Shown in pieces: positions 10,189 to 56,736 of a DNA stretch of 64,000 bases. The notes beneath the pieces are model-generated. The model was not told where the DNA came from. It saw only the letters and a program-made list of their open reading frames with translations, and made no database searches. The stretch lies in contig NZ_JNYE01000010.1 in the NCBI RefSeq assembly GCF_000717185.1, positions 34,908-98,907 on the forward strand. The letters are read 5' to 3'. The position numbers and the translations under genes are program-made. This DNA is from Kitasatospora phosalacinea. Its GTDB lineage: Bacteria > Actinomycetota > Actinomycetes > Streptomycetales > Streptomycetaceae. Numbering within the stretch: position 1 is the stretch's first letter; each line of letters opens with the position of its first letter.

Positions 10189-10193
10189 GCCCG

Positions 10194-10940: not shown

Positions 10941-10948
10941 TGTCCCCC

Positions 10949-12614: not shown

Positions 12615-12629
12615 CGAAGGAGCGCTCGG

Positions 12630-13517: not shown

Positions 13518-13552
13518 CCCGCCCCGCAACCGCTCCAGGAGAACCACCGCAC

Positions 13553-39242: not shown

Positions 39243-39656
39243 TCAGTCCCCGGCCGGGACGAACCGCACCGGCAGCTCCGGCCGCAGGTCCAGCTTCTCC
39301 CCGGTCAGCAGGTGGTCGGCCGCGATCAGCACGTTGTAGTGGTTCGGGAAGTGGCAGGCGTCGAAGCCCAGCACGGTGCCGACCCGGTGCTCGCCGACGA
39401 ACACCTCGTCGCCCCGGTCCAGCACCCCGGCCGCCGCGATCTCCGCGAAGCCGAGGAACCCCACCCGGTCGATCCGCGCTCCCGCGGCGGTGTCCCGCTG
39501 GTCCGTGGTCACCAACTCGTGCACCTCGCCCGCCCGTACGCACCGGCTGGCGAACGGCTCCAGGCTCATCCCGCGCTCGGTCCGGCTGTGCAGCAGCACC
39601 TTCACCAGCGTGCCGGTGACCGTCCGCTTCGGTCCGTTCTCCCGTACGGGGTTCAT
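39243..39656 (-). CDS. Small protein of the DUF6917 type
   Basis: A 137-residue protein, last in the six-gene minus-strand operon. TLVKVLLHSRTERGMSLEPF, VHELVTTDQRD and HFPNHYNVLIAADHLLTGEKL resemble the DUF6917 family found in metabolite clusters; function unknown. Strand-rich, no membrane helix; the His/Tyr/Asn-rich HFPNHYN patch could be a ligand site. ATG 39656 overlaps the upstream stop by four bases (ATGA), so it is translationally coupled to the dehydrogenase. Direct repeats (GGTCAGTCCCC) reach into its last codons. Confidence 0.65.
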   Translation of the reverse strand: MNPVRENGPKRTVTGTLVKVLLHSRTERGMSLEPFASRCVRAGEVHELVTTDQRDTAAGARIDRVGFLGFAEIAAAGVLDRGDEVFVGEHRVGTVLGFDACHFPNHYNVLIAADHLLTGEKLDLRPELPVRFVPAGD

Positions 39657-40630
39657 CCCAGCGCCCCCGCCCCGGCCCCGGCCTCGGCGCGGTACGCCGC
39701 CTCGACCACCCGCAGTGCGTCCACCCCGTCCGGGCCCCGCTCCGAGCCGCCTGCGCCCCCGCCCCCGCTCCCGCTCCCGTCGCGCAGCAGCCCGGCGAAC
39801 TCGCCGAGGATGCCCTCGTACTCGTGCCACAGCGACTGCTTGAAGCCCTCGTGCCCTGCCAGCAGGTCCGCCCGCAGCACCGTCCCGTCCGCCAACTCCA
39901 CGGCCACGTCCTTGAGTTCGCCCGGGTACGACCAGTCCAGCTCGATCCGGCCGCGCGCCCCGTCGCCGTGCACCCCGCTCCGGCCCGCCAGCTCCAGCGC
40001 CGCGTACCGGTCCACCCCGGTGCCGTCGCGCACCACGTGCGCGTCGGTCAGCTCCATCGGGCCCGCCAGCAGCCGCACCAGGTCGTACGCGTTCGGGCCG
40101 TTGTCGGCGACGCAGCCGCCGCCGCACCGCTCCGGGTCTAGGTACCAGCGGTCCCGGCCGACGTGCTCCTCGATCAGCTCGAAGTAGCGGACCGTCACCG
40201 ACCGCACCGGCAGCGGCTGCCCGGCGAGCGCGGTGCACAGCTCCCGCACCGCCGTGTTGTAGCGCCGGTGGAAGGCCGTGAACAGCGGCACCCGCCGTTC
40301 GGCCGCCAGCGCCGCGAGTTCGGCGCCCTCGGCGGCCCGCAGCGCCAGCGGCTTCTCCACGCACACCGGCAGGCCGGCCCGCAGCGCGTCCCGGCAGATC
40401 GCCAGGTGCAGGTCGTTCGGGACGGTCACCACCACGGCGTCCAGCCCGCCCGCGGCCAGCAGCTCCCGGTGGTCCGTGAAGCGTGCGACCCCGTTGTCGA
40501 ACGGCTCCAGCAGCGAACCGTCCCGGTCGCAGACCGCCGCCAACCGCACCCCCGGCAGCCGCTCCAGCGCGGCCAGGTAGAACCGCGAGATCACCCCGAG
40601 CCCGACCACCCCGAACCGCAGCCCGCTCAC
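39653..40630 (-). CDS. Gfo/Idh/MocA-family oxidoreductase
   Basis: A 325-residue NAD(P)-dependent dehydrogenase acting on a sugar, cyclitol or similar alcohol. The Rossmann fold opens with FGVVGLGVISRFY; the catalytic region is CVEKPLA (EKP motif) and the substrate helix contains HRRYNTAVREL; GGGCVADNGPNAYDLVRLLAG is the expected C-terminal strand region. GTG 40630 overlaps the upstream stop by four bases. A Gly/Ser run (SGSGGGGAGGS) lies in the C-terminal part. Confidence 0.87.
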   Translation of the reverse strand: MSGLRFGVVGLGVISRFYLAALERLPGVRLAAVCDRDGSLLEPFDNGVARFTDHRELLAAGGLDAVVVTVPNDLHLAICRDALRAGLPVCVEKPLALRAAEGAELAALAAERRVPLFTAFHRRYNTAVRELCTALAGQPLPVRSVTVRYFELIEEHVGRDRWYLDPERCGGGCVADNGPNAYDLVRLLAGPMELTDAHVVRDGTGVDRYAALELAGRSGVHGDGARGRIELDWSYPGELKDVAVELADGTVLRADLLAGHEGFKQSLWHEYEGILGEFAGLLRDGSGSGGGGAGGSERGPDGVDALRVVEAAYRAEAGAGAGALG

Positions 40631-41844
40631 CGCCCGCCCTCCGTCCCGGCGACCGTGCCCGCACCCGTGCCCGCACCCGTGCCCGCACCCGCGGCCGACG
40701 CCGGAACCGAAACCGACGCCGGAACCGAAACCGGACGGACGCCGAACTGCTCGGCGACGGCCGCCAGTTCGGCCAGCAGCGGCGCAGCCACCGGCACCCC
40801 GTCGCGCCGCGCCTCGGCGGTGCGCCGGGCCTCGTGCCAGCCCGGGTACGCGACCGGGCCCGAACTCCCCTCCGCGGGCGGGCAGTCCAGTACCGTGCCG
40901 AACAAGGTCCGGGCGTCCAGGGCGACCTGCTCGGCGTCCCGCAGGGCGGCCGGGGCGATCGCCAGCGCGAACACGCCGATGTCGTCGTCCCGCCCGGACG
41001 GGCGGCCGTCGCCCTCCAGCGCGGCCGGGTCCGGCCCGAGGCCCGCGCCCGGCAGCAGCGCCGCCAGCACCTCCACCATCAGTCCCAGCCCGAAGCCCTT
41101 GAACTCGCCGCCCGCACCCGACCCGAGCCACAGCAGGTGCGCCTCGCCGCGGTCGAACGCGCCCGGGTCGGTGACCGGCCGCCCGTCCGGCCCGGCCAGC
41201 CACCCCTCCGGGATCGCCCGCCCGGCCCGCTCCGCCGCCCGGACCCGGCCGGTCGGCACCGCCGTGGTGCTCATGTCCAGCACGTAGGGCGGCAGTTCAC
41301 CCGCCGGTGCGGCCACGCTCCACGGGTTCGTCCCCAGCAGCGCCACCGCGCCGCCCGGCGGCCGGGCGATCCGCTGGCGGCCGCAGTTCGAGGCCAGCAG
41401 CCCGATCATCCCGCGCCCGGTGACCCGCGCCGCGTGGTGGCCCGCGCACCCGAAGTGGGTGGCCCGGCGCACCGACACCAGTCCGATCCCGTACTGCTCG
41501 GCCCGCTCCGCGGCCAGCTCCATCGCGGCCCCGGCCTGCCACAGTCCGAGCGCCCCGGCCGCGTCCACCAGCACCGCCGCCCCCCGGTCGGCCAGCACCA
41601 CCGGCTCCGCCCGCGGATCGGCCCGGCCCTCGGCCAGCAGCGGCAGGTAGAGCCGGGTCAGGTTGGCCAGCCCGTGCGAGTCCATCCCGGCGGCGTCGCC
41701 GTAGCACAGCGCCTCCGCCGCGGCCCGGGCCCGCTCGGGCGGCAACGCGCAGGCCGCGAACACGTCGGTGGCGAAACGGATCAGGTCGGCGTACGGGACG
41801 CGGACGGTGCCGGTGGCACGGGGCGCGGACGCCACGGTGGTCAC
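40627..41844 (-). CDS. Ldh-family (malate/L-lactate-type) dehydrogenase
   Basis: A 405-residue NAD(P)-dependent oxidoreductase of the MDH2/LDH2 family, which oxidises 2-hydroxy acids or reduces imines or 2-keto acids. MDSHGLANLTRLYLP (catalytic His), RRATHFGCAGHHA and LLGTNPWSVAAPAGE are the family motifs. The last ~30 residues are a repeat-derived tail (VSVPASVSVPASAAGAGTGAG) encoded by 12- and 18-base tandem repeats. GTG 41844 has GGAGG nine bases upstream. Confidence 0.85.
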   Translation of the reverse strand: MTTVASAPRATGTVRVPYADLIRFATDVFAACALPPERARAAAEALCYGDAAGMDSHGLANLTRLYLPLLAEGRADPRAEPVVLADRGAAVLVDAAGALGLWQAGAAMELAAERAEQYGIGLVSVRRATHFGCAGHHAARVTGRGMIGLLASNCGRQRIARPPGGAVALLGTNPWSVAAPAGELPPYVLDMSTTAVPTGRVRAAERAGRAIPEGWLAGPDGRPVTDPGAFDRGEAHLLWLGSGAGGEFKGFGLGLMVEVLAALLPGAGLGPDPAALEGDGRPSGRDDDIGVFALAIAPAALRDAEQVALDARTLFGTVLDCPPAEGSSGPVAYPGWHEARRTAEARRDGVPVAAPLLAELAAVAEQFGVRPVSVPASVSVPASAAGAGTGAGTGAGTVAGTEGGR

Positions 41845-41898
41845 GGAGAACAACCTCCAGTCGGGACGGGGGACTTCAGGGGGAGACGAACGGACAGG

Positions 41899-43272
41899 TC
41901 AGGGGCGGCGGTGGCGGGCGAAGGCCACCAGCAGCCGGGCCACCGCCGAGGCGAAGCCGTCGAGCTGCTCGGCCTCGGCGAACTCGCCCGCCGCGTGCGC
42001 CCGGTTGGCGCCGAGGTCGCCCGGGCCGAGCACCACGGTGAACGCGTCGTCCGGCAGGTCGGCCGCCCAGATCGCGTCGCAGGTGAACGCCGGTTCCGTG
42101 TCCGGCATCCGGGCGATCCCGGCCCGCCGGGTGAGTAGGTCCTCCAGCTCCGGGTGCCGGTTGTCGAGGACCGGCAGGCCGCGCTTGGGCCAGTCGAGCC
42201 GGGTGATCCGCGCGCAGTCGGCGGCGGTCCGGGCGAACTCCGGCAGCCCGGCGAAGGCCTGGCGGAACGCGTCCAGCCCGGAGCGGACCGCGGCCTCCAC
42301 CGCGGCCTCCGCGCGGCGGCCCGAACCCGCGTCCCGGTAGGGGAGGTTGAGCAGCAGCTCGCCGCTCCCGTAGACCCGGTTGTGCAGCGGGCCGGTGACC
42401 GACCCGGCCACGCAGACCGGGTCGCGCGGTCCGGGCGCGGAGCCCAGCTCCCGGGCCAGGTGCTGGGCGAGGAAGCCGAGCAGTACCGTCGCGTTGTGGC
42501 CCGCGCCCGGGCAGTCGTCGATCGCGTCCTCGCCGCGCACCCGCAGCCGGGCGGTGGCGGCGGCGGTGGCCCGCGGCAGGTAGCGCAGGCCGGTCGGCTC
42601 GCAGAACACGTTCAGCGCGCCCGCGTACCCGGCCCCGACCAGCGGACGGGTGCCGAACACGCCCATCGCGCCGCCCTCCTCGCCGGACACCGCCTGCACC
42701 AGCACCGCGACCTCCCGCCCCACCCGGGGCTCCGCCGCCGCCGCGGCCCGCACCCCGGCCAGCAGCGCCACCGCCGGGCCCTTGGCGTCGATCGCGCCCC
42801 GCCCGGTGAACCGCCGCCCGTCGAAGCCCACCGGCTCCGCCCCGGCCACGGTGTCCAGGTGCACGTTGAACATCACCGTCGCCGCCCGCGGGAGTTCCGG
42901 CCCCAGCCGCAGCACCAGGCTGGGCTGGCAGGCCAGGAACCCGGGCGTCCCCGCCACCGCGTCGCGCACCGTCAACGGCACGTCCGGGCGGTCGAGTTCG
43001 GCCTCCGCGGGCGCACCGCGGTACAGCTCGGCCAGCCCGAGGCCCGCCGCCGCCCGCGCGTACCGCTCCAGCGCCTCGGGCAGCAGCGGCAGCGGTGCGC
43101 CCGGGCCGGTCTCCAGCGGGCCGGCGGTGGGCAGCCGCAGCAGGTCGAGCAGCAACTCCCGCTCGTCCGGCCGCAGTTCGGCCGTCAGCAGGCTGCTTTC
43201 CCGCTCGTCCGGCCGCAGTCCGGCCGTCAGCGGACCGGTTCCCAGGACGTCCGCCGACGGCTCACCCGGCAT
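41899..43272 (-). CDS. M20-family metallohydrolase (ArgE/DapE/acetylornithine deacetylase type)
   Basis: A 457-residue zinc hydrolase that would remove an acyl group from an amino group. Metal-binding motifs: MFNVHLDTV (H-x-D), GRGAIDAKGP (Asp), SGEEGG (Glu-Glu), FCEPTGL (Glu) and a final GAGHNATV-like His region. Residues ~13-40 contain a duplicated 14-residue unit (LTAGLRPDERESSL / LTAELRPDEREL), encoded by a 42-base direct repeat near 43160-43230. ATG 43272 overlaps the upstream isomerase end by 11 bases. Could deprotect or hydrolyse an N-acyl pathway intermediate. Confidence 0.8.
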   Translation of the reverse strand: MPGEPSADVLGTGPLTAGLRPDERESSLLTAELRPDERELLLDLLRLPTAGPLETGPGAPLPLLPEALERYARAAAGLGLAELYRGAPAEAELDRPDVPLTVRDAVAGTPGFLACQPSLVLRLGPELPRAATVMFNVHLDTVAGAEPVGFDGRRFTGRGAIDAKGPAVALLAGVRAAAAAEPRVGREVAVLVQAVSGEEGGAMGVFGTRPLVGAGYAGALNVFCEPTGLRYLPRATAAATARLRVRGEDAIDDCPGAGHNATVLLGFLAQHLARELGSAPGPRDPVCVAGSVTGPLHNRVYGSGELLLNLPYRDAGSGRRAEAAVEAAVRSGLDAFRQAFAGLPEFARTAADCARITRLDWPKRGLPVLDNRHPELEDLLTRRAGIARMPDTEPAFTCDAIWAADLPDDAFTVVLGPGDLGANRAHAAGEFAEAEQLDGFASAVARLLVAFARHRRP

Positions 43273-44206
43273 CGGACACCACGCCTTCCCGCCCGTCCGC
43301 CGGCCGGGGCACCGGCGCGTCCAGCACCAGGCCGCCCGGGACGAGCCGCCAGCCGGGGGAGTGCGGCAGCACCTCGCGCTCGACCAGGGCGGTCAACGCC
43401 CGTCCGGCGGCGACGAATCCGCTCTCGGTGCGGCCGTCGGCGGCCAGGCCCTCGTGCGGCCGGGTGACCAGGTGCGGTTCCAGCGACCACACGCCGTGCC
43501 AGCCGCGGGCGGTCAACAGCCGCAGGGTGTCGGCGAGTCGAGCGTTCCCGGCGCCGGGCAGCACGTACCGGGTGTCCTCGCCGCCGCCGACCGCGTCCTT
43601 GACGTGCAGGTGGTCGACGTGGTCGACGGTGCGGCGCAGCAGTTCGAACCCGTCGTAGCCGTAGGGGATCCCGTTGCCGGTGTCGTGCAGCAGCCGTAGC
43701 CCGGGGCCGCCCGCCGAGGCCATCAGGTCGAGCGTGTTGTCGGCCGAACTCCCGGCCCAGCCCTGGCAGTTCTCGTGCAGCAGGAGCAGGCCGCCGCGGT
43801 GCGCCCGGTCCGCGAGGCGGCGCATCCGCCGCAGCACCCGCAGGCGCCACTCGGCCTCGGGCAGGCCGGTGCGGTTGGGGTAGGACATCACCCGGACCCG
43901 GCGGGTGCCGAGCAGGGCGGCGCGGGTGCCGAGCGCGTCGAGCTCCCGGTCGTCCGCCGCGGGGTCGTCGGTGACGTCGGAGGCCCAGTTGCCGATCCGG
44001 GCGGCGATGCCGCAGGTCCGGATCCCGTGCTGCCGCAGGGCGGCGGCGACCTCCTCGACCCGGGGGAGCGGCAGGTCGGCGATCCAGACGCCGTCCACCG
44101 TCCGCAACTCCAGCTCGTCCCAGCCGAGTTGCTGCAGCGCGTCAATCTGCCCGGCCAGATCGGGCGCGGCCTCGTCGCCGATGCCGCCGAACCGGACGGC
44201 GCTCAC
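43262..44206 (-). CDS. Sugar phosphate isomerase/epimerase (xylose-isomerase-like TIM barrel)
   Basis: A 314-residue TIM-barrel protein of the AP-endonuclease-2-like superfamily that includes IolE and IolI. Metal ligand regions: ELRTVDG (Glu), LLHENCQGW (Glu-Asn), LLHDTGNG (His-Asp) and HLHVKDAVGG (His-x-Lys-Asp), ending with WSLEPHL (Glu). These predict a divalent-cation isomerase or epimerase on a sugar or inosose. GTG 44206 overlaps the upstream stop by four bases. Confidence 0.85.
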   Translation of the reverse strand: MSAVRFGGIGDEAAPDLAGQIDALQQLGWDELELRTVDGVWIADLPLPRVEEVAAALRQHGIRTCGIAARIGNWASDVTDDPAADDRELDALGTRAALLGTRRVRVMSYPNRTGLPEAEWRLRVLRRMRRLADRAHRGGLLLLHENCQGWAGSSADNTLDLMASAGGPGLRLLHDTGNGIPYGYDGFELLRRTVDHVDHLHVKDAVGGGEDTRYVLPGAGNARLADTLRLLTARGWHGVWSLEPHLVTRPHEGLAADGRTESGFVAAGRALTALVEREVLPHSPGWRLVPGGLVLDAPVPRPADGREGVVSDAG

Positions 44207-45255
44207 CGGCCCACCGCCGCGCGCACCGCACCGGTGCGGGACCCGTCCCGCACCGTGCCGCCCGCGGCGATCGCCTTGGCGCGGTCGAGCAGCCGCACCA
44301 CCTGGGTGTTGACCGCCAGGTCGGGGTGCGGCCCGCGCCGGGTGCCGTCCGCCGCGTAGTACCGGTAGGTGTGCTCCAGGAAGCCGCCGAGCGCGTCGTC
44401 GTGCAGCAGTTCGGTGCTCTCGCCGTCGCGGTCGATGACGGTCAGCCGGGCGTACGCGTCGGCCTCGCTGCCGGGGAAGTGCCCGATCAGGGTGCCGTGC
44501 GCGAGCTCCAGGGTGACCCGGCGCTCGCGCACCGGCGAGGTGAGGTCGGAGCGGATCCTGGTCCACGCCCCGCTGTCGTGCTGGAGGTTGAGCCAGGCGG
44601 TGCCGAGCCGGGGCAGCACCCGCCCGCCGACCACCATGTCGGTGCCGCCCGCGCCGGTCACCTCGCCGGGCCCGGCGAGGGCGAGGCACAGGCCCAGCGA
44701 GTGCGGCAGTTCGACGTCGAACGCGGTGGGGTGCCCGTCCCCGGCCAGCGAGCGGGAGAACCGCGGCTTGCGCTGGACGACGTGGATGGTGCGCAGCGGC
44801 CCGTACGCGTCCTGGGCGAGCAGCGCGCGCAGCCGATCGGTGAGGCGGCTGCCCAGCCACTGGGCGACCACCACCAGGTCGGTCCCGTACCGGTCGCGCA
44901 GCGCGAGCAACTCGTCCAGGCCGCGGCTGTCGGCGGCCACCGGCTTCTCCAGCAGCACCCGCCGGTAGCCGAGCCGGCCGAGCGCGTCCAGGGCGGCGGC
45001 CCGCGCGGTGGGCGGGGTGCACAGGTGGACGACGGTGCGGTCCGGGTCGAGCAGCCGGGGCGCCTCGGCGAGGGTGGTCGGGCGCAGGTCGGCGGCGGCC
45101 CCGGGCCGGTGGTGCGGGTCGACGGCGAGCACCGGCCCGGGCGCGAACAGGTGCGCCGTGCCGGGGTCGGCGCGCAGCCGGCGCAGCACCGGGAGGTGGA
45201 GTCCGCGCCCGGCCCGTCCCATTCCGACGAGTAAGGTCCCGAGTCCGTTCGACAT
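44203..45255 (-). CDS. Gfo/Idh/MocA-family oxidoreductase, first gene of the left operon
   Basis: A 350-residue NAD(P) dehydrogenase. TLLVGMGRAGRGLHLPVL is the dinucleotide-binding turn; VLLEKPVAADSRG carries the EKP catalytic lysine; AFDVELPHSLG and HTYRYYA lie in the C-terminal domain. It differs strongly from the second Gfo/Idh protein of the same operon, so the two probably act at different steps (for example oxidation before and reduction after transamination). ATG 45255; divergent from the DegT genes over a 215-base spacer. Confidence 0.85.
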   Translation of the reverse strand: MSNGLGTLLVGMGRAGRGLHLPVLRRLRADPGTAHLFAPGPVLAVDPHHRPGAAADLRPTTLAEAPRLLDPDRTVVHLCTPPTARAAALDALGRLGYRRVLLEKPVAADSRGLDELLALRDRYGTDLVVVAQWLGSRLTDRLRALLAQDAYGPLRTIHVVQRKPRFSRSLAGDGHPTAFDVELPHSLGLCLALAGPGEVTGAGGTDMVVGGRVLPRLGTAWLNLQHDSGAWTRIRSDLTSPVRERRVTLELAHGTLIGHFPGSEADAYARLTVIDRDGESTELLHDDALGGFLEHTYRYYAADGTRRGPHPDLAVNTQVVRLLDRAKAIAAGGTVRDGSRTGAVRAAVGR

Positions 45256-45470
45256 GGCGAGACGTCATTCCTTCCGCGTCGCGGTATTGCTTCACCCGGT
45301 ATTCAAGCAGTAATTCGCCGACGGTCCGTCCGGGCGTCAAATCCCTTTTACGGCAGTCCATTCGAAGGGGTGAAACAGTTCCGCGGCCGAGGTGGACGGG
45401 GTGCCGGGGGCATAGATTCGTGGGAAGGGCTGCTCCGCCCGTCCAATCCATACAATCCGATGAGAGTTTC
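45256..45470. promoter_or_regulatory. Divergent promoter region of the amino-sugar half of the cluster
   Basis: This 215-base spacer is AT-richer than its neighbours. It holds a direct repeat GGTATT (two copies around 45280 and 45298), a TGCTT...AAGCA inverted pair, and TAGATT at 45413-45418 as a possible -10 box for the DegT operon. No regulator gene lies inside the cluster. No strong operator was identified. Confidence 0.45.
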
Positions 45471-46640
45471 ATGGGTGTCACTACCTCTCCGGGTGTTCCC
45501 TTCTTCACCCAGGCCGCGACCTTCGAATCCCTCTGGCCCACCACCCGGCGCCACCTCGACGAACTGATGGACCGCGGCAAGTACTCGCACGGCCCCAAGG
45601 TCGCGGAACTCGAAGCCGCCCTCGCCGCCTGGACGGGCGCCCGGCACGTGATCGGCGTCAACAGCGGCACCGACGCCCTGGTCCTGCTGCTGCGCGCGGC
45701 CGGCCTGCGCCCCGGCGACGAGGTGATCGTCCCCGCCTACACCTTCGTCGCCTCCGCGACCTCGGTGGTGCTGGCGGGCGGCCGCCCGGTCTTCGCGGAC
45801 ATCGACCCGGTCACGTACAGCCTCGACCCGGCGAGCGTCGAAGCCGTCCGCACCGACCGCACCCGGATGGTCATGCCCGTCCACCTCTTCCACCAACTCG
45901 CCGACCTGGAGGCCCTGCTGGCCCTCGCCGACCGGCACGGCCTGACCGTCGTAGAGGACAGCGCCGAGGCCTTCGGCATGCGCTGGGACGGCGTCCACGC
46001 GGGCCTGCACGGCGCGGGCGGCGTGCTCTCCTTCTTCCCCACCAAGACGCTCGGCGCGATCGGCGACGCGGGCGCCGTCCTCACCGACGACCCGGCCCTC
46101 GCCGAAGCCGTCTCCGCGATGCGCCACCACGGCCGCACCGGCCGCACCCTGGACGACTTCCCCACCATCAACCGCCCCACCGAACTCCTCGGCACCAACA
46201 GCAAGATGGACGACGTCCAGGCCGCCGTCCTGCTCGCCAAACTCGGCCGCGCCGACCGGGACATCGCCCGCCGCGCCCACCTCGCCGCCGCCTACACCGA
46301 ACGCCTGACCGGCACCCCCGGCCTCACCCTGCCCACCGTCGTCCGGCGGAACGCCGCCACCGACCCGGTCTGGTACGTCTACCTGATCGAGTCCGACCAC
46401 CGGGACGAACTCGCCGCCCACCTCGCCCGGCACGGCGTCCAGACCGAGACGTACTACCCGACGCCGCTCCACCTCCAGCCCTGCTTCGCCGAACTCGGCC
46501 ACCGCACCGGCGAGTTCCCGCACGCCGAAGCCGCCTGCGGCCGCGCCCTCGCGCTCCCGCTCTACCCCGACCTCGCCGACCACGAACTGGACCTGGTCAG
46601 TGACCTGGTCCGCGACTTCCAGCACGGAAAGCAGCGGTGA
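45471..46640 (+). CDS. DegT/DnrJ/EryC1-family aminotransferase
   Basis: A 389-residue PLP enzyme of the sugar/cyclitol aminotransferase family. VNSGTDALVLLLRAAGLRPGD and IVPAYTFVASA form the cofactor phosphate site; D163 in VVEDSAEAFG pairs with the PLP nitrogen and K192 in FFPTKTLGAIGDAGA is the Schiff-base lysine. Expected reaction: glutamate- or glutamine-dependent amination of a keto-sugar, inosose or similar. ATG 45471 with GAGAG upstream. Seven bases separate it from the second aminotransferase, so they are co-transcribed. Confidence 0.9.
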   Translation: MGVTTSPGVPFFTQAATFESLWPTTRRHLDELMDRGKYSHGPKVAELEAALAAWTGARHVIGVNSGTDALVLLLRAAGLRPGDEVIVPAYTFVASATSVVLAGGRPVFADIDPVTYSLDPASVEAVRTDRTRMVMPVHLFHQLADLEALLALADRHGLTVVEDSAEAFGMRWDGVHAGLHGAGGVLSFFPTKTLGAIGDAGAVLTDDPALAEAVSAMRHHGRTGRTLDDFPTINRPTELLGTNSKMDDVQAAVLLAKLGRADRDIARRAHLAAAYTERLTGTPGLTLPTVVRRNAATDPVWYVYLIESDHRDELAAHLARHGVQTETYYPTPLHLQPCFAELGHRTGEFPHAEAACGRALALPLYPDLADHELDLVSDLVRDFQHGKQR

Positions 46641-46647
46641 CCCACCG

Positions 46648-47790: not shown

Positions 47791-47814
47791 GAACGCCGGC
47801 CAGGCCTGAGAACG

Positions 47815-47854
47815 CCGGTGGGCGCCCCCTCCGCACGGACGGGGCGCCCACCGG
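47815..47854. terminator. Bidirectional terminator between aminotransferase and ligase genes
   Basis: Perfect 14-base arms (47815-47828, CCGGTGGGCGCCCC; 47841-47854) with a 12-base loop between convergent genes. Confidence 0.85.
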
Positions 47855-47861
47855 TGGCGGT

Positions 47862-49487
47862 TCAACCCACCGCCACCCCGTCCGCCCGCACGGCCGCCGC
47901 CGCCAGCTCCGCGACCACCCGCCGGTCCGGCTTCCCCGACCCGCCCAGCGGCATCCGCTCCAGCAGCAGCAGCCGCTCCGGCAGCTTGTACCGCTCCAGA
48001 CCGCACAACTCGCGTAGGAAGAACGTCAGTTCATCGAGCGTCAGCGCCTCCCCCCGTGGCACCGCGCAGACGCACATCCGCTCGCCGAGATCCGGATCCG
48101 GCACCGGCACGCACACCGCCTCCGCGACCTCCGGGTGCCCCTCCAGCAGCCGCTCCACCTCCGCGACGGAGATCGACACTCCGCCCCGGTTCACCGTCTG
48201 CTTGATCCGCGCCAGCACCCGCAGCGAACCGTCCGCCTCCAGCACCCCCCGGTCGCCGGAGCGCACCCAGCCCCCGTCCACCCGCAGCCGGGCGTCCAAC
48301 TCCGGCTCCCCGACGTGGCACAGCGGCGTCATCGGACCCCGCGCCTGCAACTCGCCCGGCACCCCCGCGGGCACCGGGCGCCCGTCCGGCCCGCACACCC
48401 GGAACTCCGCGACCTGCGGGTCCGGCAGGCCCACCCGCAGCACGTCGCCTTCCGGATCCGCCCACCGCGCATGGCAGTTCAGCCCGTCACTGGCCCCGTA
48501 CACGTTCACCACCGGGCACCCGAACCGCCGCAGCGCCGCACCCAGCACCGCCGGGGACAGCGCCGCCGCGCTCGACACCACCGCCTGCAACGAGGACAGG
48601 TCCTCGCCCGGCGCGGGCACCCGCTCCGCCATCCGGCGCAGCATGGTCGGCACCGCCGCCAGGTGCGTCGGCCGCCACCGCCCCACCGCGGCCAGCGCCC
48701 CCGCCGGGTCGAACCGCTCCCCGACCGGCGGCAGCAGCACCGTGGCCCCGCACCGCACCAGCGCCACCACCGCCAGCGAACCGTACGCCGTCGCCGGGCT
48801 CACCAGCAGCAGCACCCGCGGCGGCGCACCGTCCGCGGTCGCCAGCACCCGCTCCACGTACCGCCCGCGGCCGCCAGCCAGGGCGTTGTGCGAGTACGCG
48901 ATCAGCTTCGGGGCGGCCTCCGAACCCGAGGACAGCAGGATCCGGGCGGGCGCCTCCGCGTCCACCACGGCGGGCACCCACTCCGCCCGCTCCGGCCAGG
49001 CGTCCTCGCCGAGCACCACCACCTCGTGCAGGTCCGGGAGTTCGGGCCGCAGCCCGTCCACCAGGCCCTTCCACTCCGGCACCGTCACCACCGCGTCCAC
49101 CCGCGCCGTGCCCCACACCGACAGCAGGTCCCGCCGCCCGTGCCCGGCCGTGCACGGCAGCACCACCGCACCCAGTGCCGCCACCGCCAGGTCCACCACC
49201 GGCGCCCGCCGGTCCGCGGGCACCTTCACGCCCACCACCGACCCCGGCCCCACTCCCCGCGCCGCCAGCCCGGCCGCCAACCCCCGGACCCACCGGCCCA
49301 GTTCCGCGTACGAGAGCGCGCCCGCCCCGTCCACCACCGCGGCCCGCTCCCCGTGCGCCGCGACCCGCTCCGCGAACAGCTCGTACAACCCCCGCCCCGG
49401 GCACCACCCCCGGGCCACCCAGCGCTCCCGCAACTCCCGGTCCACCCGGTCGGGGAACTCCACCCCGGCCACCGAAACCCACGTCAC
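47862..49487 (-). CDS. Acyl-AMP ligase (ANL superfamily), last gene of the right operon
   Basis: A 541-residue adenylate-forming enzyme. LLSSGSEAAPKLIAYS is the phosphate-binding loop (with SGSEAAPK instead of the common SGTTG.PK), NVYGASDG is motif A5, WVRSGDRG (A7) and RIKQTVNRGGVSIS (A8), and the catalytic lysine is in LGGSGKPDRR. The A5/A8 pattern is like aryl-acid AMP ligases (EntE/DhbE type), so an aromatic acid is plausible. GTG 49487 has GGGAG at a good distance; an upstream GTG (49514) is possible. No carrier protein is seen in the window. Confidence 0.86.
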   Translation of the reverse strand: MTWVSVAGVEFPDRVDRELRERWVARGWCPGRGLYELFAERVAAHGERAAVVDGAGALSYAELGRWVRGLAAGLAARGVGPGSVVGVKVPADRRAPVVDLAVAALGAVVLPCTAGHGRRDLLSVWGTARVDAVVTVPEWKGLVDGLRPELPDLHEVVVLGEDAWPERAEWVPAVVDAEAPARILLSSGSEAAPKLIAYSHNALAGGRGRYVERVLATADGAPPRVLLLVSPATAYGSLAVVALVRCGATVLLPPVGERFDPAGALAAVGRWRPTHLAAVPTMLRRMAERVPAPGEDLSSLQAVVSSAAALSPAVLGAALRRFGCPVVNVYGASDGLNCHARWADPEGDVLRVGLPDPQVAEFRVCGPDGRPVPAGVPGELQARGPMTPLCHVGEPELDARLRVDGGWVRSGDRGVLEADGSLRVLARIKQTVNRGGVSISVAEVERLLEGHPEVAEAVCVPVPDPDLGERMCVCAVPRGEALTLDELTFFLRELCGLERYKLPERLLLLERMPLGGSGKPDRRVVAELAAAAVRADGVAVG

Positions 49488-49554
49488 AGCCACCACTCCC
49501 GTCCGCCGATCCACCGATCAGAACCCTTGCCCCGCCCGCTCACGTCCCGCCCGC

Positions 49555-51180
49555 TCACGCCCCGAACTCCCACGGCCCGCGGACGAACGCGCACCCGTCC
49601 GCCCCGAACTCGAACGCCGCCGCCACCCGCGGGTCGCGCACCAGCGCGGCCAGGTCCGTGCACACCTCCACCCCGTCCCCGGGGAAGCCGCCGCCGCCCG
49701 CCGCCCCGCACAGCAGCCGGGCCGCCGACAGCAGCGAGGACTCGACCCGCTGCGCCCGCCCGGTCCGCTCCCGGGCCTCCAGCGCGGCGACCGCCCCCGC
49801 GGCGCAGACCAGGCCGCCCAGCACGTCGCAGACCGTCAGCAGGGTGGGGCGCGGCGGCAGCCCGTCCGGCGCCAGCAGCGCGGCCAGGCCGGAGTGCGCC
49901 TGCACCGGGTAGTCGGTGCTCAGCCCGGGCCCGCCGCCGCTGGCCTGCGCGTACACCAGGCCGGGGCGCAGCGCGGCGGCCGTCCCGGCGTCCAGCCCCA
50001 GCCCGGCGACCTTCGCGGGCGCGAGGCTGTGCAGCAGCACGTCCGCCCCGCTCACCAACTCCCGTACGGCAGAGCGCCCTTCCGGGCTCCGCAGGTCCGC
50101 CTCCAGCACCCCCTTGCCACGGTTGAGCGCCGCGAACCGGGCCGACACCGCCGCCCCCTCCCCGCCCGGCTCCGCCGTCATCGGTGGCACGCCGCGCAGC
50201 GGGTCCCCGCCCGGGGGCTCGACCCGCAGCACGGCGGCCCCGAGCAGCGCCAACACCCGCCCGGCCATCGGCCCCTGGACCCGCCGGGTGATCTCCACCA
50301 CCGTCACGCCGCTCAACGGGCCCGGCCCGTCGAAGGGTTCACCCCGTCGCACGGTTCCCGGCGCCCCCGCCCGCAGCTGCCACGGCATCCCGCCCAGCAC
50401 CGCGGGCCGCCCCGCCACCTCCGTCAGCTCCACCCCGCACTCCGCCGCGACCCGCAGCAGCCGCCGGTACTCGACCGCCCGGGCCGCCGCGAACAGCTGC
50501 TCCGGCAGCGGGCAGGCCGCCGTCCCGTACCGGGCCTGGAACGGCAGCCAACCGCGCCCCACCACCCGCCGCTCGACGTCCAGTTCGCACCAGAACCGCA
50601 GCCAGCCGTCCGCCTCCAGCGCCTCCAGCTCGAACCACACCCCGTCCGCCGACCCGAACGGCGGCCCGCCCGCCCCGGACGGCTCCGCGCCGTCGCCGCC
50701 CGCGCCGTCGCCCCCCACCGAGGCCGCCGCCAGGTACTGCGACAGCCCGAGCAGCGCGCCCTGCGCCACCGACACCCCCACCTCGCGGTACGCCGCGCCC
50801 AGCCGCCGGGCGCGCAGCGCCGCCAGCGTGCCGGTGGTGGCCAGCACCCCGGCCGCCACCGAGGCGAAGTCCACCCGCAGCGGCGTCGGCGCCCCGTAGC
50901 GCCGCCCGTGCACGTGCATCACCCCGCAGGCCGCCTGGACGTCCGCCTCGCTGTCGAGCCGCAGCCCCAGCGGCCCGGACCAGGACATCCGGCACGCCAA
51001 CTCGCCGCCGACCTCCAGCAGTTCACCCTCGCCGACCGCCACCCCGGAAGCCCGCAGCAGCCCCGCCGCCACCTCCCGCGCCACCCGCGGCCGCACACCG
51101 ACGGCCCCCGTCGCGGCCGCCGTCACGGCTGCCACCCGCGGCCGCACACCGACGGCCGCCGACCCGACGGCCCCCGTCAC
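49555..51180 (-). CDS. CaiB/BaiF-type CoA-transferase with rearranged halves
   Basis: A 541-residue family III CoA-transferase of unusual layout. Residues ~30-270 look like the middle and C-terminal part of a CaiB fold (PLRVDFASVAAGVLA with candidate catalytic D104). Residues ~287-541 look like the N-terminal and middle part (LSGVTVVEITRRVQGPMAGR, VLRVEPPGGDPLR, then CDVLGGLVCAAG with candidate D452) followed directly by a short C-terminal end. The usual order is therefore inverted, or the protein is a deleted tandem dimer. The first ~35 residues contain a duplicated GVRPRVA unit (27-base direct repeat, 51080 and 51130). GTG 51180 overlaps the methyltransferase stop (GTGA). Confidence 0.75.
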   Translation of the reverse strand: MTGAVGSAAVGVRPRVAAVTAAATGAVGVRPRVAREVAAGLLRASGVAVGEGELLEVGGELACRMSWSGPLGLRLDSEADVQAACGVMHVHGRRYGAPTPLRVDFASVAAGVLATTGTLAALRARRLGAAYREVGVSVAQGALLGLSQYLAAASVGGDGAGGDGAEPSGAGGPPFGSADGVWFELEALEADGWLRFWCELDVERRVVGRGWLPFQARYGTAACPLPEQLFAAARAVEYRRLLRVAAECGVELTEVAGRPAVLGGMPWQLRAGAPGTVRRGEPFDGPGPLSGVTVVEITRRVQGPMAGRVLALLGAAVLRVEPPGGDPLRGVPPMTAEPGGEGAAVSARFAALNRGKGVLEADLRSPEGRSAVRELVSGADVLLHSLAPAKVAGLGLDAGTAAALRPGLVYAQASGGGPGLSTDYPVQAHSGLAALLAPDGLPPRPTLLTVCDVLGGLVCAAGAVAALEARERTGRAQRVESSLLSAARLLCGAAGGGGFPGDGVEVCTDLAALVRDPRVAAAFEFGADGCAFVRGPWEFGA

Positions 51181-51977
51181 GGCCGCCGCCCGCGCACCGC
51201 GTACACCACGTTCGAGCAGGCCCGGAACCGCGGATCGGCGAACAGCCCCCGCAGCTCGGCGAGTTCGTCCTCGCCCAGCCCCTCCCGCAGCAGCGGCTCC
51301 CGCAGGTGCCAGGTGTTGTGCAGCTGCATCTCCAACTGCGGCGTGCCGGGCGCGAGGGTGCCGATCCGCACCTCCGCCTCCACCCCGGTGAACCCGGCCC
51401 GCACCAGCGCACCGGCGCACTCCCGCCCCCAGCCCTGGTGCGAGCCGCGCGCCCGGAAGGCCCGCAACTTCGCCCGCTGGTAACGCTCGTACAGCTCCCG
51501 GGCCCGCTCGTCGGGGACGGTCAGCACCGGCGCGTACTCGGCGTCGAACTCCAGCAGGTGCAGCACCCCGCCGGGCCGCAGCGCCGCGAACAGCCGGGCC
51601 AGCACGGCCTCCCGTTCCGGCAGGTGGGAGAGCACCAGCCGGGCGTGCACCAGGTCGAAGGCGCCCGGGGGCAGTTCGTCGCGCACCACGTCGTGCCGGA
51701 GCACCGTCAGCCCGGGTCGCACCGGCACCGGCAGCGGCGCCAGGTCCGTCGCCAGCACCGAGCCCCCGGGCGCGACCCGCTCGGCCAGCCAGAGCGCGAC
51801 GCTCCCCGCCCCGGTGCCCACGTCCAGGCAGCGCATCCCGGGCCCGACCCCGCCCGCCCGCAGCGCGCCGAAGCTGACCGGGTCGAGCCACGCCGCCAGG
51901 CAGCGGTGCTGCCCGGCCGCGTGCGCGCTCCCGTTGTCGAACAGGTACGACCCCGTCTCCCGCACCGCGCCCGCCAT
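51177..51977 (-). CDS. SAM-dependent methyltransferase (class I)
   Basis: A 266-residue Rossmann-fold methyltransferase. CLDVGTGAGSVALWLAERV is motif I, VLATDLAPLPV the acidic loop, FDLVHARLVLSHL motif post-I/II and LRPGGVLHLLEFD motif III. C-terminal half has a helical substrate-binding part. The substrate is unknown; O- or C-methylation of a prenylated aromatic is possible given neighbours. ATG 51977 overlaps the stop of the upstream flavoenzyme (TGATG). Coupled to the CoA-transferase start by a GTGA overlap. Confidence 0.88.
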   Translation of the reverse strand: MAGAVRETGSYLFDNGSAHAAGQHRCLAAWLDPVSFGALRAGGVGPGMRCLDVGTGAGSVALWLAERVAPGGSVLATDLAPLPVPVRPGLTVLRHDVVRDELPPGAFDLVHARLVLSHLPEREAVLARLFAALRPGGVLHLLEFDAEYAPVLTVPDERARELYERYQRAKLRAFRARGSHQGWGRECAGALVRAGFTGVEAEVRIGTLAPGTPQLEMQLHNTWHLREPLLREGLGEDELAELRGLFADPRFRACSNVVYAVRGRRP

Positions 51978-53362
51978 CAGACCCGCCCCGCCACGGTGGG
52001 AACGGCCCCCGCACCCGCGTGCGCGAGCACCCGCCGCGCCGCCAGCTTCCCCGACCGCACCGCCCCCTCGCTGCTCGGCCGCAGCATCACCCAGTCCCCG
52101 GCGTACTCGACCGGCCCGGTCGGCCGCTCCAGGAACGCGGCCCGCTCCCGGACGGCGGCCGGCGCGCCCTGCGGCAGCCCGAGCGGGAAGCGGTGCACCA
52201 GCGTCCGGACGGTGGCCGCCCGCAGGCCGGGCAGGAACCGCTCGGCCTCCGCGCAGACCACCTCCGCCACCCGCCCGTCCGGTTCGCCCAGCAGCCCGGG
52301 GGAGGCCCACGGCGAGGCGAACGCGGTGACCAGCCCCTTCCCCTCCGGCGCCCGCCCGTCGGCCTTGAGGTGGTCGAGGACCAGCCCGGTGCAGACCCGG
52401 CTCTCCTCCTCCGGCACCGACAGCGCGTAGCTGGGCGCCCGGGTCGGGCTCGGCAGCGGCCGGTCCAGCAGACAGGCGACCTTGAGCATCGGCGCGTACG
52501 TGCTCGCCGCCAGGTACGGCCGCTCCCGGTCCGGGAGGTCGTCCCCGCGCAGTTCCAGGGCGAGCGGCGCGGGCACCGCCAGCACCGCCTGCCGGGCCCG
52601 CACCCGCGCCCCGTCGGCGAACTCCAGCAGCACGCCGCCCGCCCCGCCGGGGGCCGAGCCGTCCCGCACCGAGACCACCTGCCGCCCGAGCTCCACCGGC
52701 AGCCGTTCGGCCAGCCGCCGGGCCAGGGTGTCCATCCCGTCCCGGTAGGTCATCCAGCGCGCCCCGGCCCCGCCCACCGACAGCAGGGTGGCGACCATCG
52801 GGGCGACCGCCGAGCTGTCCGGCCGCCAGCCGAAGCAGTGGCTGGAGAGCGGTTGCAGCATCGCGGCCAGCAGTTCCTCCCGCCCGGCCGACCCGGCGCA
52901 GTACGCGCTCAGCGTGGCGTCCCCGCTGGGTGCGGTCTCCGGCCGGTCGGGGTCGAACTCCCGCCAGCGGGTGGCGAGTTCGGCGGCGAACCGGAGCCAG
53001 GCCCAGCGGCCGCGCCAGGACAGCCCGGCGCCGGTCAGCAGCCCCTTCGGGTGCCCGAGGTGGGGGTGGGCGCGCCCGCCCCGCCACAGGGCGAAGCCGG
53101 GTTCGACCACCGGCACCTCGTCCTCCGGCAGGCCGACCGCCCGGATCAGCTCCCAGGTGGCCTCGTACCCGGCGCCCGCGATGGTCTCCGCGCCCTCGTC
53201 CAGCAGCCAGCCGTCCACCCGGCTGGACGCCATCCGCCCGCCGACCCGGTCCGCGCCGTCGAAGACCCGCACCGCACGCCCGGCCGCGGCCAGGTGGTGC
53301 GCCGCGGACAGCCCCGCGATCCCCGCCCCGACCACCGCGACGTCGACCTCGACCTCGTCCAT
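51977..53362 (-). CDS. FAD-dependent oxidoreductase (amine-oxidase / protoporphyrinogen-oxidase-like)
   Basis: A 461-residue flavoprotein. The dinucleotide site is DVAVVGAGIAGLSAAHHLAA with GADRVGGRM following (the GG doublet of the amine-oxidase superfamily); the C-terminus holds GPVEYAGDWVMLRPSSEGAV, the FAD ribityl contact region. PLSSHCFGWRPDSSAVAPM is similar to protoporphyrinogen-oxidase-like desaturases. Likely desaturation or oxidation of an isoprenoid or amine. ATG 53362 with GGAGAG six bases upstream; GTG 53380 is an alternative. Confidence 0.85.
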   Translation of the reverse strand: MDEVEVDVAVVGAGIAGLSAAHHLAAAGRAVRVFDGADRVGGRMASSRVDGWLLDEGAETIAGAGYEATWELIRAVGLPEDEVPVVEPGFALWRGGRAHPHLGHPKGLLTGAGLSWRGRWAWLRFAAELATRWREFDPDRPETAPSGDATLSAYCAGSAGREELLAAMLQPLSSHCFGWRPDSSAVAPMVATLLSVGGAGARWMTYRDGMDTLARRLAERLPVELGRQVVSVRDGSAPGGAGGVLLEFADGARVRARQAVLAVPAPLALELRGDDLPDRERPYLAASTYAPMLKVACLLDRPLPSPTRAPSYALSVPEEESRVCTGLVLDHLKADGRAPEGKGLVTAFASPWASPGLLGEPDGRVAEVVCAEAERFLPGLRAATVRTLVHRFPLGLPQGAPAAVRERAAFLERPTGPVEYAGDWVMLRPSSEGAVRSGKLAARRVLAHAGAGAVPTVAGRV

Positions 53363-53407
53363 GCCCAGCTCTCCGCTCACCTCAACCCACTTCCACAGAT
53401 CCGGAGT

Positions 53408-55036
53408 TCACGTCCACAGGCCGGTACCGATCCGGGTGCTCCCGGCCAGCACCCGCTCCCGCAGCTCGTGCCGCCGCACCTTCCCGGTGGCCGTCCGCGG
53501 CACCGCGTCCCAGCCGACCACCAGCGGTTCGGCCAGCGGCGGCAGGTCGCGCACCGCGTCCCGCCAGCGGGCCGGGTCGAGGGTGCCGTCGGCGGTGACC
53601 AGCACCGGCTGCGGGCGGCCCTCGGCGACGGACAGCAGCACGGCCTCCTCGACGTCCGGCAGCCGCTCGTGCAGCACGTCCTCGACCTCGACGCAGCTCA
53701 TCCCGGGCACCATGTCGACCTCCCGGTCCAGCACCAGGACGCGGCCGTCGCGGGTCCGGACCCCGAGGTCCCCGGTGTTGAACCAGCCGCGGTCGAGCTT
53801 GCGCCGCCAGCGTTCCGGCTCGTCCAGGTAGCCCAGGCACAGCGCCCCGGTGCGGGCGTACAGCATGCCGGTCTCGCCGGGCCGCACGGTCCGGCCGGGC
53901 CGCTGCGGGTCGGTGACCCTGAGCCGCACCCAGCCGGGCACCGGGCGCCCCAGGTCTCGGGTGGTCGGGTGCCGTTCACCGGCGGCGGCCAGCGCGCCCC
54001 GGGTGAGGAAGCGGAAGCTCAGCGGCCCGGTCTCGCTCTGCCCCCAGCCCTGCATCCACAGCGGCCGCCGCCGCCGGGTGGCGTCCAGGAAGGTCCGCAC
54101 CGTCGGCGGGTGCACCGCGTCGAAGGTCGAGATGAACAGCCGCACGTCCCGGAACGGGTTGCCCGCCCCGGCCGCCAGCGGCTGCCAGCGCACGTAGCTG
54201 GACGGCAGCGCCTCCAGCACGGTCGGCGGGTGGCTGCGCAGCAGCGCGGCGGCCGCCGACGGGTCCGCGTCGGGCAGCAGCGCGACGGTCCGCGGGGCGC
54301 GCCAGAACGCGCTGACGGTCCAGGTTAGCGCCCGCCCGTGGGCGAAGGAGATCGCGCTGGCCACGGTGTCCTCGCGGCGCACCGACAGCACCGGCCAGGG
54401 CCGGGCCTCGAACGCGGACAGCCGCCGGATCAGCGTCCGGGTGGAGTGCACCACGAGCTTGGGGACGCCGGTGGTGCCGGAGGTGTGGATGACCGCGAGC
54501 GGCTCGTCCTCCCCGCGGGTGCGCACGCCCGGCACCGGCCCGCCGCGCAGCCCGTCCACCGGCAGCGCGCCCTCGGCGGGCCCGTCCAGGCACACCGTCC
54601 GCCCGGCCAGCGCGGTCAGCTCCACCCCGGCGGCCCGCGCCCCGCCCAGCACGTCCCGCTGGGTGACCAGCACGTCCGGCCGCAGCCGCCGCAGCAGCGC
54701 GCCCAGCCCCTCCGGCGGCACCCGGTCCGAGAGCAGCGCGGGCACCGCCCCGATCCGGGCCGCCGCGCAGGCCAGCAGCACGTAGTCCCAGTGGTTGCGC
54801 TTGACCACCGCCACCGAGGAGCCGGGCCCGGCCCCGGCCGCCGCCAGCCAGGCCGCGGTCTCCCGCACCAGCTCGGCCAGCTGCGCGGTGTCGTACGCGG
54901 TGCCGCGCTCCGGCGCCAGGTCCAGCGGACGGCCCAACTGCACGTCCACCGAAGGACGTCGATCGGCCAGCGTGTCGAACAGCGGCCCCAGGTCGAGCGG
55001 CAGCCGCCCGAACACCGCCCCCAGCCCCCCGCTCAC
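53408..55036 (-). CDS. Acyl-AMP ligase (ANL superfamily), second gene of the right operon
   Basis: A 542-residue adenylate-forming enzyme. IHTSGTTGVPKLVVHS is the P-loop (about residue 182), QGWGQSETG motif A5, WFNTGDLG (A7) and RTATGKVRRHEL contains the catalytic lysine. The His/Trp-rich AYDTAQLAELVRE N-terminus is typical of fatty or aryl acyl-CoA ligases. Together with the other ligase and a CoA-transferase it suggests a CoA-thioester intermediate. GTG 55036 overlaps the UbiA stop by four bases. Confidence 0.87.
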   Translation of the reverse strand: MSGGLGAVFGRLPLDLGPLFDTLADRRPSVDVQLGRPLDLAPERGTAYDTAQLAELVRETAAWLAAAGAGPGSSVAVVKRNHWDYVLLACAAARIGAVPALLSDRVPPEGLGALLRRLRPDVLVTQRDVLGGARAAGVELTALAGRTVCLDGPAEGALPVDGLRGGPVPGVRTRGEDEPLAVIHTSGTTGVPKLVVHSTRTLIRRLSAFEARPWPVLSVRREDTVASAISFAHGRALTWTVSAFWRAPRTVALLPDADPSAAAALLRSHPPTVLEALPSSYVRWQPLAAGAGNPFRDVRLFISTFDAVHPPTVRTFLDATRRRRPLWMQGWGQSETGPLSFRFLTRGALAAAGERHPTTRDLGRPVPGWVRLRVTDPQRPGRTVRPGETGMLYARTGALCLGYLDEPERWRRKLDRGWFNTGDLGVRTRDGRVLVLDREVDMVPGMSCVEVEDVLHERLPDVEEAVLLSVAEGRPQPVLVTADGTLDPARWRDAVRDLPPLAEPLVVGWDAVPRTATGKVRRHELRERVLAGSTRIGTGLWT

Positions 55037-56004
55037 AGCCCACCGCCGGTCACCGCGAGCGCCAGGTCCACGCCGACCAGCAGCGCGCAGCACACCCGGT
55101 GCAGGCGAATCCCGAGCCGGCGGGCGAGCAGGATCTCGCCCCGGACGAACCCGAGCACCCACTGCCGGGCCCGCAGCGCGACCACCGGCGCCATCACCAG
55201 CGGGAACCACCACGGCGCGTACCCGGCCACCGCCGAGCCGACCAGCAGCACCGCCTCCAGCGCCGAGCACCCGGCCACGAACGCCGCGTTGCCGCGCGGC
55301 GACAGCAGCACCGCGGCGGTCCTGCGCCCCACCGCCCGGTCCCCGGCGATGTCGTTGGTGTTGGAGTAGACGCCGAACAGCAGCGGGCCGAGCCCGAACA
55401 GCAGCGCCTGCACCACCGCGAAGCCGTCGAACCGCCCGGCCAGCAGCCCGTACAGCGGCAGCACGAAGAACCAGCCGAGCGCGGCGAGGAAGAGCTCCTG
55501 GAAGCCGTTGTAGCTGATCCGTAGCCACCAGGTGTACTGGAAGCCGAACACGGCCAGCGCCGCCGTCCCGGCCACCGCCCACCCGGGCCGGGCGGGCGCC
55601 GCGGCCACCGCCGCCGCCCAGCACAGCACGCACGCCGCGACGGTCGCCCAGCCGAACCGGATCGCCTGGCGCTCCGTCAGCGTCCCGGCCACCAGCGGCT
55701 TGCGGGCCAGCCGCCGGGCGGGCGCGTCCGGCCCGTAGTTCACCGCGTCGCTGCCGTCCCGGTACCCGGTGACGTCGTCGAAGGTGCACATGGCCGCGCT
55801 CATCGCGACCTCCCCGCCCAGGAACAGCACCAGCACCAGCAGCGCCGTCCCCGCGCCCACCCCGGTCCCGGAGGCCAGCACCAGCGCGGCCACCAGCGGG
55901 ACGCTCAGGTAGTAGTCCCAGATGTCGAGCTTGGCCAGCCTGGCGTACGCCCGCCAGGGGACCGGGGCCGCCTCGGGAGCGGCGGGAAGGGCGACGTGCT
56001 CCAC
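55033..56004 (-). CDS. UbiA-family prenyltransferase, first gene of the right operon
   Basis: A 323-residue membrane enzyme with about eight or nine helices. The two Asp-rich prenyl-diphosphate motifs are FDDVTGYRDGSD (about residues 75-86; the usual first N/D position is Phe-Asp-Asp here) and NDIAGDRAVG (N217, D218, D222). UbiA enzymes transfer a prenyl chain to an aromatic ring or cyclise a terpenyl diphosphate. Which is meant here cannot be told. GTG 56004 was chosen for a GAGAGGA site upstream; a GTG 27 codons earlier is possible. Confidence 0.85.
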   Translation of the reverse strand: MEHVALPAAPEAAPVPWRAYARLAKLDIWDYYLSVPLVAALVLASGTGVGAGTALLVLVLFLGGEVAMSAAMCTFDDVTGYRDGSDAVNYGPDAPARRLARKPLVAGTLTERQAIRFGWATVAACVLCWAAAVAAAPARPGWAVAGTAALAVFGFQYTWWLRISYNGFQELFLAALGWFFVLPLYGLLAGRFDGFAVVQALLFGLGPLLFGVYSNTNDIAGDRAVGRRTAAVLLSPRGNAAFVAGCSALEAVLLVGSAVAGYAPWWFPLVMAPVVALRARQWVLGFVRGEILLARRLGIRLHRVCCALLVGVDLALAVTGGGL

Positions 56005-56553: not shown

Positions 56554-56736
56554 AGTCATCCTTCACGACGTTCCACTCCCGTGTCCGTCACGGGCCGCCA
56601 CCATCGCTATCGTGCGCACACATCTGAACTCCAATCCCGCCCACCGAATTCACCCGACCGGCCGAAACCCGGGCCGCCGCCGCACGCCCCTCCACCGGCC
56701 CCGTCCGATCCCGCCCCGCCCGTCACCCGCCCGGAC

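Follow-up and report, generated by a model that had tools for sequence, protein, structure and literature searches.

A recurrent actinomycete locus joining amino-sugar-type enzymes to a UbiA prenyltransferase and adenylate-forming ligases: a candidate specialised-metabolite cluster in Kitasatospora phosalacinea

Across actinomycete genera, a core block of sugar-modifying-type enzymes, a pair of aminotransferases and a prenyl/ligase module co-occur at short distance from one another. In Kitasatospora phosalacinea they make up 14 consecutive genes that fill positions 39243..56004 of the window, i.e., the whole stretch of 64,000 nucleotides that was analysed, which is part of contig C10 in a genome of 8.6 Mb. 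The conserved locus is wider than these 14 genes, since an EF-hand gene on the left and a gene for a small secreted protein on the right recur alongside; the whole conserved set comprises about sixteen genes and is also present in many relatives. On balance, we favour the interpretation that this is one specialised-metabolite cluster, in which an NDP-amino-uronic sugar would be converted to a polyamino unit and joined to a prenylated, adenylate-activated acid, in a manner resembling that of xiamenmycin assembly.

The genes were delimited by gene calling, open reading frames and Pfam. Six lie at left on the minus strand (DUF6917, Gfo/Idh 1, Ldh_2, M20, TIM barrel and Gfo/Idh 2) and six at right, also on the minus strand (ligase 1, CaiB, methyltransferase, FAD oxidase, ligase 2 and UbiA), while the two DegT genes sit between them on the plus strand. 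The gene families listed by the sequence-only reading were confirmed for this range, except that DUF6917 had been overlooked and that the locus extends past the range on both sides (38549-39088 and 56248-56559). Of the two Gfo/Idh enzymes that it named, the first was borne out by PF01408, while the second, for which neither Pfam nor NCBIfam gave a match at E<=0.001, was assigned because a 44%-identical relative carries the RefSeq name Gfo/Idh/MocA. Its statement that most adjacent genes overlap by four bases was mistaken: only 4 of 11 same-strand junctions do so, with further overlaps of 11 and 1 base, as judged from called starts. The reported lack of polyketide synthase, NRPS, carrier protein and terpene synthase held, as no ketosynthase, condensation, carrier or terpene-synthase Pfam was matched among the 14 genes. 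Two tRNA calls by ARAGORN on the minus strand (50616-50692 and 55262-55339) fell inside the CaiB and UbiA genes, had no Rfam match at the gathering score and were taken as chance.

The association of the two halves was evaluated with DUF6917 as marker of the core block. Of 61 Kitasatospora genomes, 19 had both DUF6917 and UbiA, 3 had only DUF6917, none had only UbiA and 39 had neither (Fisher p = 5e-13); this count leaves out a DUF6917 match of 24 bits over 61 residues in G014. The corresponding values for 392 Streptomyces genomes were 38, 13, 4 and 337 (p = 4e-37), where UbiA was counted above 300 bits (42 genomes) and the 54 rows of the DUF6917 search represented 51 genomes, through split matches in G866 and G715. 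Strong UbiA was missing from 13 of these 51, one of which (G866) has UbiA in fragments, and DUF6917 was missing from 4 of the 42. At a looser threshold (E<=1e-20), 13 more DUF6917-negative Streptomyces genomes had a UbiA of 152-215 bits; these were taken for probable members of other UbiA families. Where both genes were on one contig, 34 of 37 pairs were no more than 18 kb apart; the distance was 185-856 kb in G547, G676 and G513, and in G504 the genes were on different contigs. Two of the Kitasatospora genomes with DUF6917 and without UbiA (G040 and G056) had a different version of the locus, adjoining trp genes. In G005, which also lacks UbiA, just M20, Ldh_2, Gfo1 and DUF6917 were present in the fetched 20 kb (9972-13895), and this locus looks like a remnant.

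A scan of 84,980 species genomes for DUF6917 produced 210 relatives, the best 80 of which were retained, so the named set leans towards the window; among these 80, the closest to the window's DUF6917 were K. phosalacinea strains with 97-99% identity. UbiA was present in all 80 named genomes: within the stretch in 49, elsewhere in the genome in 23, and in 8 Kitasatospora. That is, 31 stretches lacked UbiA; 23 of these genomes were queried, together with L070, whose UbiA was already established, and every one of the 23 had it at 317-509 bits, while for the 8 Kitasatospora it was taken from genomes of the Kitasatospora search that these records appear to represent. Fetching showed UbiA to be adjacent beyond the 10-kb flank in G899 and G902 (loci L222 and L223). 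Pairwise distances of UbiA and DegT1 were correlated (0.88) over 47 sequences, comprising the window and the 46 loci that hold all six families, and the core and DegT genes gave 0.78-0.94 among themselves; common descent alone could explain the correlation of UbiA with DegT1.

From 39 of the 51 Streptomyces DUF6917 genomes, 40 stretches were fetched. Loci of relatives were compared in 120 stretches. They were classed as UbiA (60), MEP (14), tryptophan (4), mixed UbiA and MEP (4) or none (38), with some genomes counted twice; this classification depends on identity thresholds and on an in-house gene caller, which overlooked DegT2 in L051 and L055, where it was recovered at 80%. The 38 class-less stretches, many of them incomplete, included 22 with the EF-hand gene and 12 with the dehydrogenase discussed below. 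A-type Kitasatospora loci have the same arrangement as the window. B-type loci (seven genomes, L043-L049) retain the left half together with both DegT genes, with the prenyl genes on the opposite strand; the 20 kb fetched for them showed no ligase 1, CaiB or EF-hand gene, and encoded a 167-aa protein whose start resembles a signal sequence. Nine loci from Streptosporangium, Streptomonospora, Nocardiopsis and Sphaerimonospora (L085, L087, L091, L098, L101, L115, L128, L130 and L133) had the whole series on one strand, in the order Gfo2, TIM, M20, Ldh_2, Gfo1, DUF6917, EF-hand, DegT1, DegT2, UbiA, FAD oxidase and ligase 2, followed by CaiB in eight of the nine. L124 had this order too, with the TIM gene not called. 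All five further stretches of the class that were fetched (L224, L225, L227, L228 and L229) showed the UbiA side and then FAD oxidase, ligase 2, methyltransferase, CaiB and ligase 1. In the Streptomyces locus L222, six genes follow one another directly on a single strand, namely those for DegT1, DegT2, a methyltransferase, UbiA, an NDP-sugar 6-dehydrogenase and a transporter of BenE type, the BenE assignment being based on two relatives (441 and 443 bits).

Two independent clusters were rejected on the co-occurrence of DUF6917 with UbiA and the distance between them; the halves do not occur independently in most of the Kitasatospora and Streptomyces genomes, and the earlier proposal of a single cluster was sustained. 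Likewise, it is most improbable that a sugar-acid catabolic operon at left merely adjoins an unrelated, small prenylated-acid set at right. Gfo/Idh, TIM barrel, Ldh_2 and M20 proteins are frequent in catabolism, the DegT genes of the window are on the opposite strand, and a block with trp genes and without UbiA exists, but co-occurrence, short distance, one-strand arrangements and the presence of both halves in 80 of 80 named genomes all speak against chance adjacency.

The core block begins with DUF6917 (39243..39656; PF21891, E = 6.9e-56), a family with no predicted function; its AF2 model had a pLDDT of 94, and fold comparison with this model gave no clear match. Gfo/Idh 1 (39653..40630; PF01408, E = 1.2e-22) retains the EKP motif and has Asn where we take His to be the usual residue of the Gfo/Idh/MocA family. 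The Ldh_2 oxidoreductase (40627..41844; PF02615, E = 9.2e-95) is of the malate/L-lactate dehydrogenase type, and the M20 metallohydrolase (41899..43272; PF01546, E = 8.8e-13), of deacylase type, has conserved HxD, D, EE and E motifs. Then follow a TIM barrel of the sugar isomerase/epimerase type (43262..44206; AP_endonuc_2, PF01261, E = 5.7e-22), which matched IolE weakly in the PDB (E = 0.026), and the divergent Gfo/Idh 2 (44203..45255). DegT1 (45471..46640, with ATG at 45471 and homologues of 387-389 aa; PF01041, E = 6.7e-107) and DegT2 (46648..47790; PF01041, E = 1.7e-96) both retain the lysine expected to bind PLP. So far as specificity can be predicted, they are closest to 3-keto-sugar aminotransferases: the best PDB matches of both include 2oga (3e-82 for DegT1) and WbpE (3nyu; 1e-67 for DegT1 and 7.5e-61 for DegT2), and the second-best match of DegT1 was glutamine--scyllo-inositol transaminase (7b0d). 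Homologues for these residue comparisons (DegT lysine, EKP, M20 motifs, and the GK motif of ligase 2) were filtered by length ranges.

An NDP-sugar 6-dehydrogenase accompanied the block in 44 of 60 UbiA-class stretches (TIGR03026, 413 bits, cut-off 190). In the genome of the window, a search for the NDP-GlcNAc 6-dehydrogenase matched three other contigs and not that of the window; the homologue, at 49% identity, is on C143 (12.9 kb), where no cluster gene was found. Since the dehydrogenase is so frequent among UbiA-class stretches, a sugar start is favoured, and of the two substrates proposed earlier, an aminated sugar or cyclitol, the cyclitol has become the less likely. Gfo/Idh is also paired with DegT in C7N aminocyclitol and AHBA clusters, but a cluster of either kind was rejected, there being no match to a sugar-phosphate cyclase or aminoDHQ synthase among the 14 genes.

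The core block might instead make the prenyl acceptor, such that an inositol or sugar ring is aminated, dehydrated by the IolE-like TIM barrel and aromatised before UbiA prenylates it, with the ligases acting elsewhere. UbiA acceptors are usually aromatic, and no chorismate-lyase-type gene was found among the 14 by Pfam; these points agree with such a route, as do the weak likeness to IolE and the scyllo-inositol transaminase match. However, the dehydrogenase points to an NDP-sugar, M20 enzymes suit N-acyl removal from an acetamido sugar, and the tryptophan class has the core block without UbiA. This route was considered unlikely, though not negligible.

A precedent for a sugar start is the set WbpA, WbpB and WbpE, described in PMC10622841 as a route to the 3-amino-uronate UDP-GlcNAc3NA. 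Shared elements are Gfo/Idh and DegT enzymes and, in most relatives, a 6-dehydrogenase; WbpE is one of the top PDB matches for each DegT protein, and Gfo/Idh 1 matched WbpB (3o9z) at E = 2.8e-7, far below its best match. By contrast, the window has two Gfo/Idh and two DegT enzymes plus M20, Ldh_2, TIM barrel and DUF6917, the 6-dehydrogenase is missing from it, and neither a WbpD acetyltransferase nor a WbpI epimerase was seen there. Thirteen of the proteins, DUF6917 not included, were compared with NCBIfam; no primary-pathway model reached its curated cut-off among the matches listed (the best 25 for each ligase and for the FAD enzyme), and neither half corresponded to a known primary pathway on this evidence.

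The prenyl/ligase module is read from the minus strand. UbiA (55033..56004; PF01040) has DDxTGxRDGSD and NDxxGDR motifs that are invariant across 9 aligned sequences. Ligase 2 (53408..55036; PF00501, E = 1.1e-45) is of the ANL type and retains the C-terminal GK motif; next to it are an FAD-dependent oxidoreductase of the amine-oxidase/desaturase type (51977..53362; PF01593, E = 1.1e-44) and a SAM methyltransferase (51177..51977; PF13489 and others). The CaiB-type, or class III, CoA-transferase-like protein (49555..51096; PF02515, in two stretches) has about 250 additional N-terminal residues, and its best match stops at profile position 204 of 366; rearrangement or duplication of a class III CoA-transferase may account for this. 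ANL ligase 1 (47862..49487; PF00501 and PF13193), an acyl- or aryl-adenylate forming enzyme, was closest to salicylate- and DHB-AMP ligases in the PDB (salicylate-AMP ligase 5wm2, 7e-52). In aryl-acid AMP ligases of this type, the Asn of the HN(Y/F) motif presumably belongs to the acid pocket; in ligase 1 it is replaced, aligning to Ala (against 1md9) or Tyr (against 5wm2), and a simple aryl acid is therefore disfavoured. Because UbiA is present, and MEP genes and the BenE transporter occur in sister loci, a prenylated acid is favoured. Hence, the prenylated aromatic acid first suggested is favoured as to prenylation, while its aromatic nature is put in doubt and its amide or ester link to the sugar stays conjectural.

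A known system with a UbiA-type prenyltransferase and an ANL amide synthetase, and without PKS or NRPS, is xiamenmycin (XimA-E) of Streptomyces xiamenensis, as outlined in PMC4053376. The likeness was drawn by gene family: the window has UbiA, with PF01040 and D-rich motifs, and two ANL enzymes whose amide activity is predicted. It differs in having no chorismate lyase, epoxidase or SnoaL-like cyclase Pfam among its 14 genes; moreover, the amine is threonine in the xiamenmycin account, whereas an amino sugar is proposed here, with six extra core enzymes.

The EF-hand protein (38549..39088, plus strand; 179 aa) belongs to the calerythrin family, matching EF-hand Pfams and, as its best solved relative, calerythrin itself (1nya, E = 1.4e-47), with which it aligns end to end (residues 2-178 with 1-176). 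The coelenterazine-binding EF-hand protein 2hps is among its structural neighbours, and calerythrin shares 63-64% identity with the EF-hand protein encoded in the Saccharopolyspora rosea locus. By class, the gene was present in 55 of 60 UbiA stretches and in none of the 14 MEP, 4 tryptophan and 4 mixed stretches. Of 70 Kitasatospora genomes, 14 had close copies (at least 344 bits), and each of these also carries UbiA; the other seven UbiA-bearing genomes, which are B-type, had none. Streptomyces proteins 82-88% identical to it exist, which may count against exclusivity. On the other side, the small protein with a signal-peptide-like start (56248..56559, minus strand; 103 aa) was called as an open reading frame, and its family is present in 30 of 80 named stretches. 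A CMD/AhpD-type protein (37708..38211, minus strand; PF02627) is a possible accessory member, found in 14 of the 80, 8 of them Kitasatospora.

The two flanking proteins could be taken to act at the cell envelope, in which case a glycolipid or a polyprenyl-linked sugar would be made, and no diffusible product. Enzymes for uronates and amino sugars are typical of surface polysaccharides (cf. WbpA/B/E), sugar phosphates are substrates of some UbiA relatives, and the small signal-peptide-like protein recurs. Yet the locus of the window showed no glycosyltransferase, and Pfam matched neither a flippase nor a polymerase in the 14 genes; the spread is patchy (22 of 61 Kitasatospora genomes, 51 of 392 Streptomyces genomes), and free acid ligases and CaiB are atypical of glycans. 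An envelope function was accordingly rated improbable.

The core block also occurs with MEP or tryptophan genes in sister classes, and is for this reason portable. In the fourteen MEP-class stretches it adjoins DXS, IspG, IspH or polyprenyl-diphosphate synthase, pointing to use of an isoprenoid by the pathway. UbiA is missing from L053, L054, L175, L201, L202 and L207, where the genes for DegT1, DegT2, TIM, M20, Ldh_2 and Gfo1 are accompanied by tryptophan genes and one for a B3/4-domain protein, and Gfo1 is fused to DUF6917 in L053 and L054; possibly, this class makes another product from the same block. The block in this class sits between TrpC/TrpB/TrpA and the B3/4-domain protein, with TrpE/TrpG-like genes in some. 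A further variant (L208, L209 and L210) has an NDP-sugar dehydrogenase, Gfo2 and the DegT pair; in L208 and L209 there is also a protein of roughly 740 aa with an M20 match, whose length would leave room for the TIM barrel. Since L210 carries one gene of the enolase superfamily and one of the ATP-grasp L-amino-acid-ligase type, the block may feed peptides. Divergent DUF6917 genes adjoin TPP-dependent enzymes, without the core block, in L211, L212 and a Thermomicrobium roseum plasmid (L216), the last with LysX and proline racemase also near. In L134, and likewise in L215 on a plasmid, a single reading frame spans DUF6917 and DXS; together with the TPP enzymes, this hints at a link between DUF6917 and TPP enzymes.

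From these data we infer the following order of steps, acid and product for the single cluster that we favour. An NDP-N-acetylhexosamine would be oxidised at C6 to the uronate, by a dehydrogenase perhaps supplied in trans here; the Gfo/Idh enzymes would create keto groups, the two DegT enzymes would aminate them, and M20 would take off the N-acyl group. TIM barrel, Ldh_2 and DUF6917 are conjectured to reshape the skeleton. In a separate branch, UbiA would attach an isoprenoid chain to the acid, which the FAD enzyme and methyltransferase may tailor; the ANL ligases would then activate the acid and couple it to the sugar unit at an amino group, and CoA handling is the conjectured role of the CaiB protein. 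The EF-hand protein may be a calcium-dependent helper or regulator.

More speculatively, a prenylated acid joined to a polyamino-uronate could be a new product class made by a portable block, with the EF-hand protein as a calcium-gated carrier or switch for an oily product and sister products made with MEP or tryptophan genes; we regard this fuller picture as doubtful. A literature search for the gene combination found no matching paper, coverage being thin for subscription journals. With its marker in 51 of 392 Streptomyces and 22 of 61 Kitasatospora genomes, and no PKS or NRPS among the 14 central genes, the cluster would open up a large, as yet unmapped, supply of metabolites. DUF6917 and the calerythrin family, the latter known mainly from structural work, gain a biosynthetic context that can be tested by single deletions.
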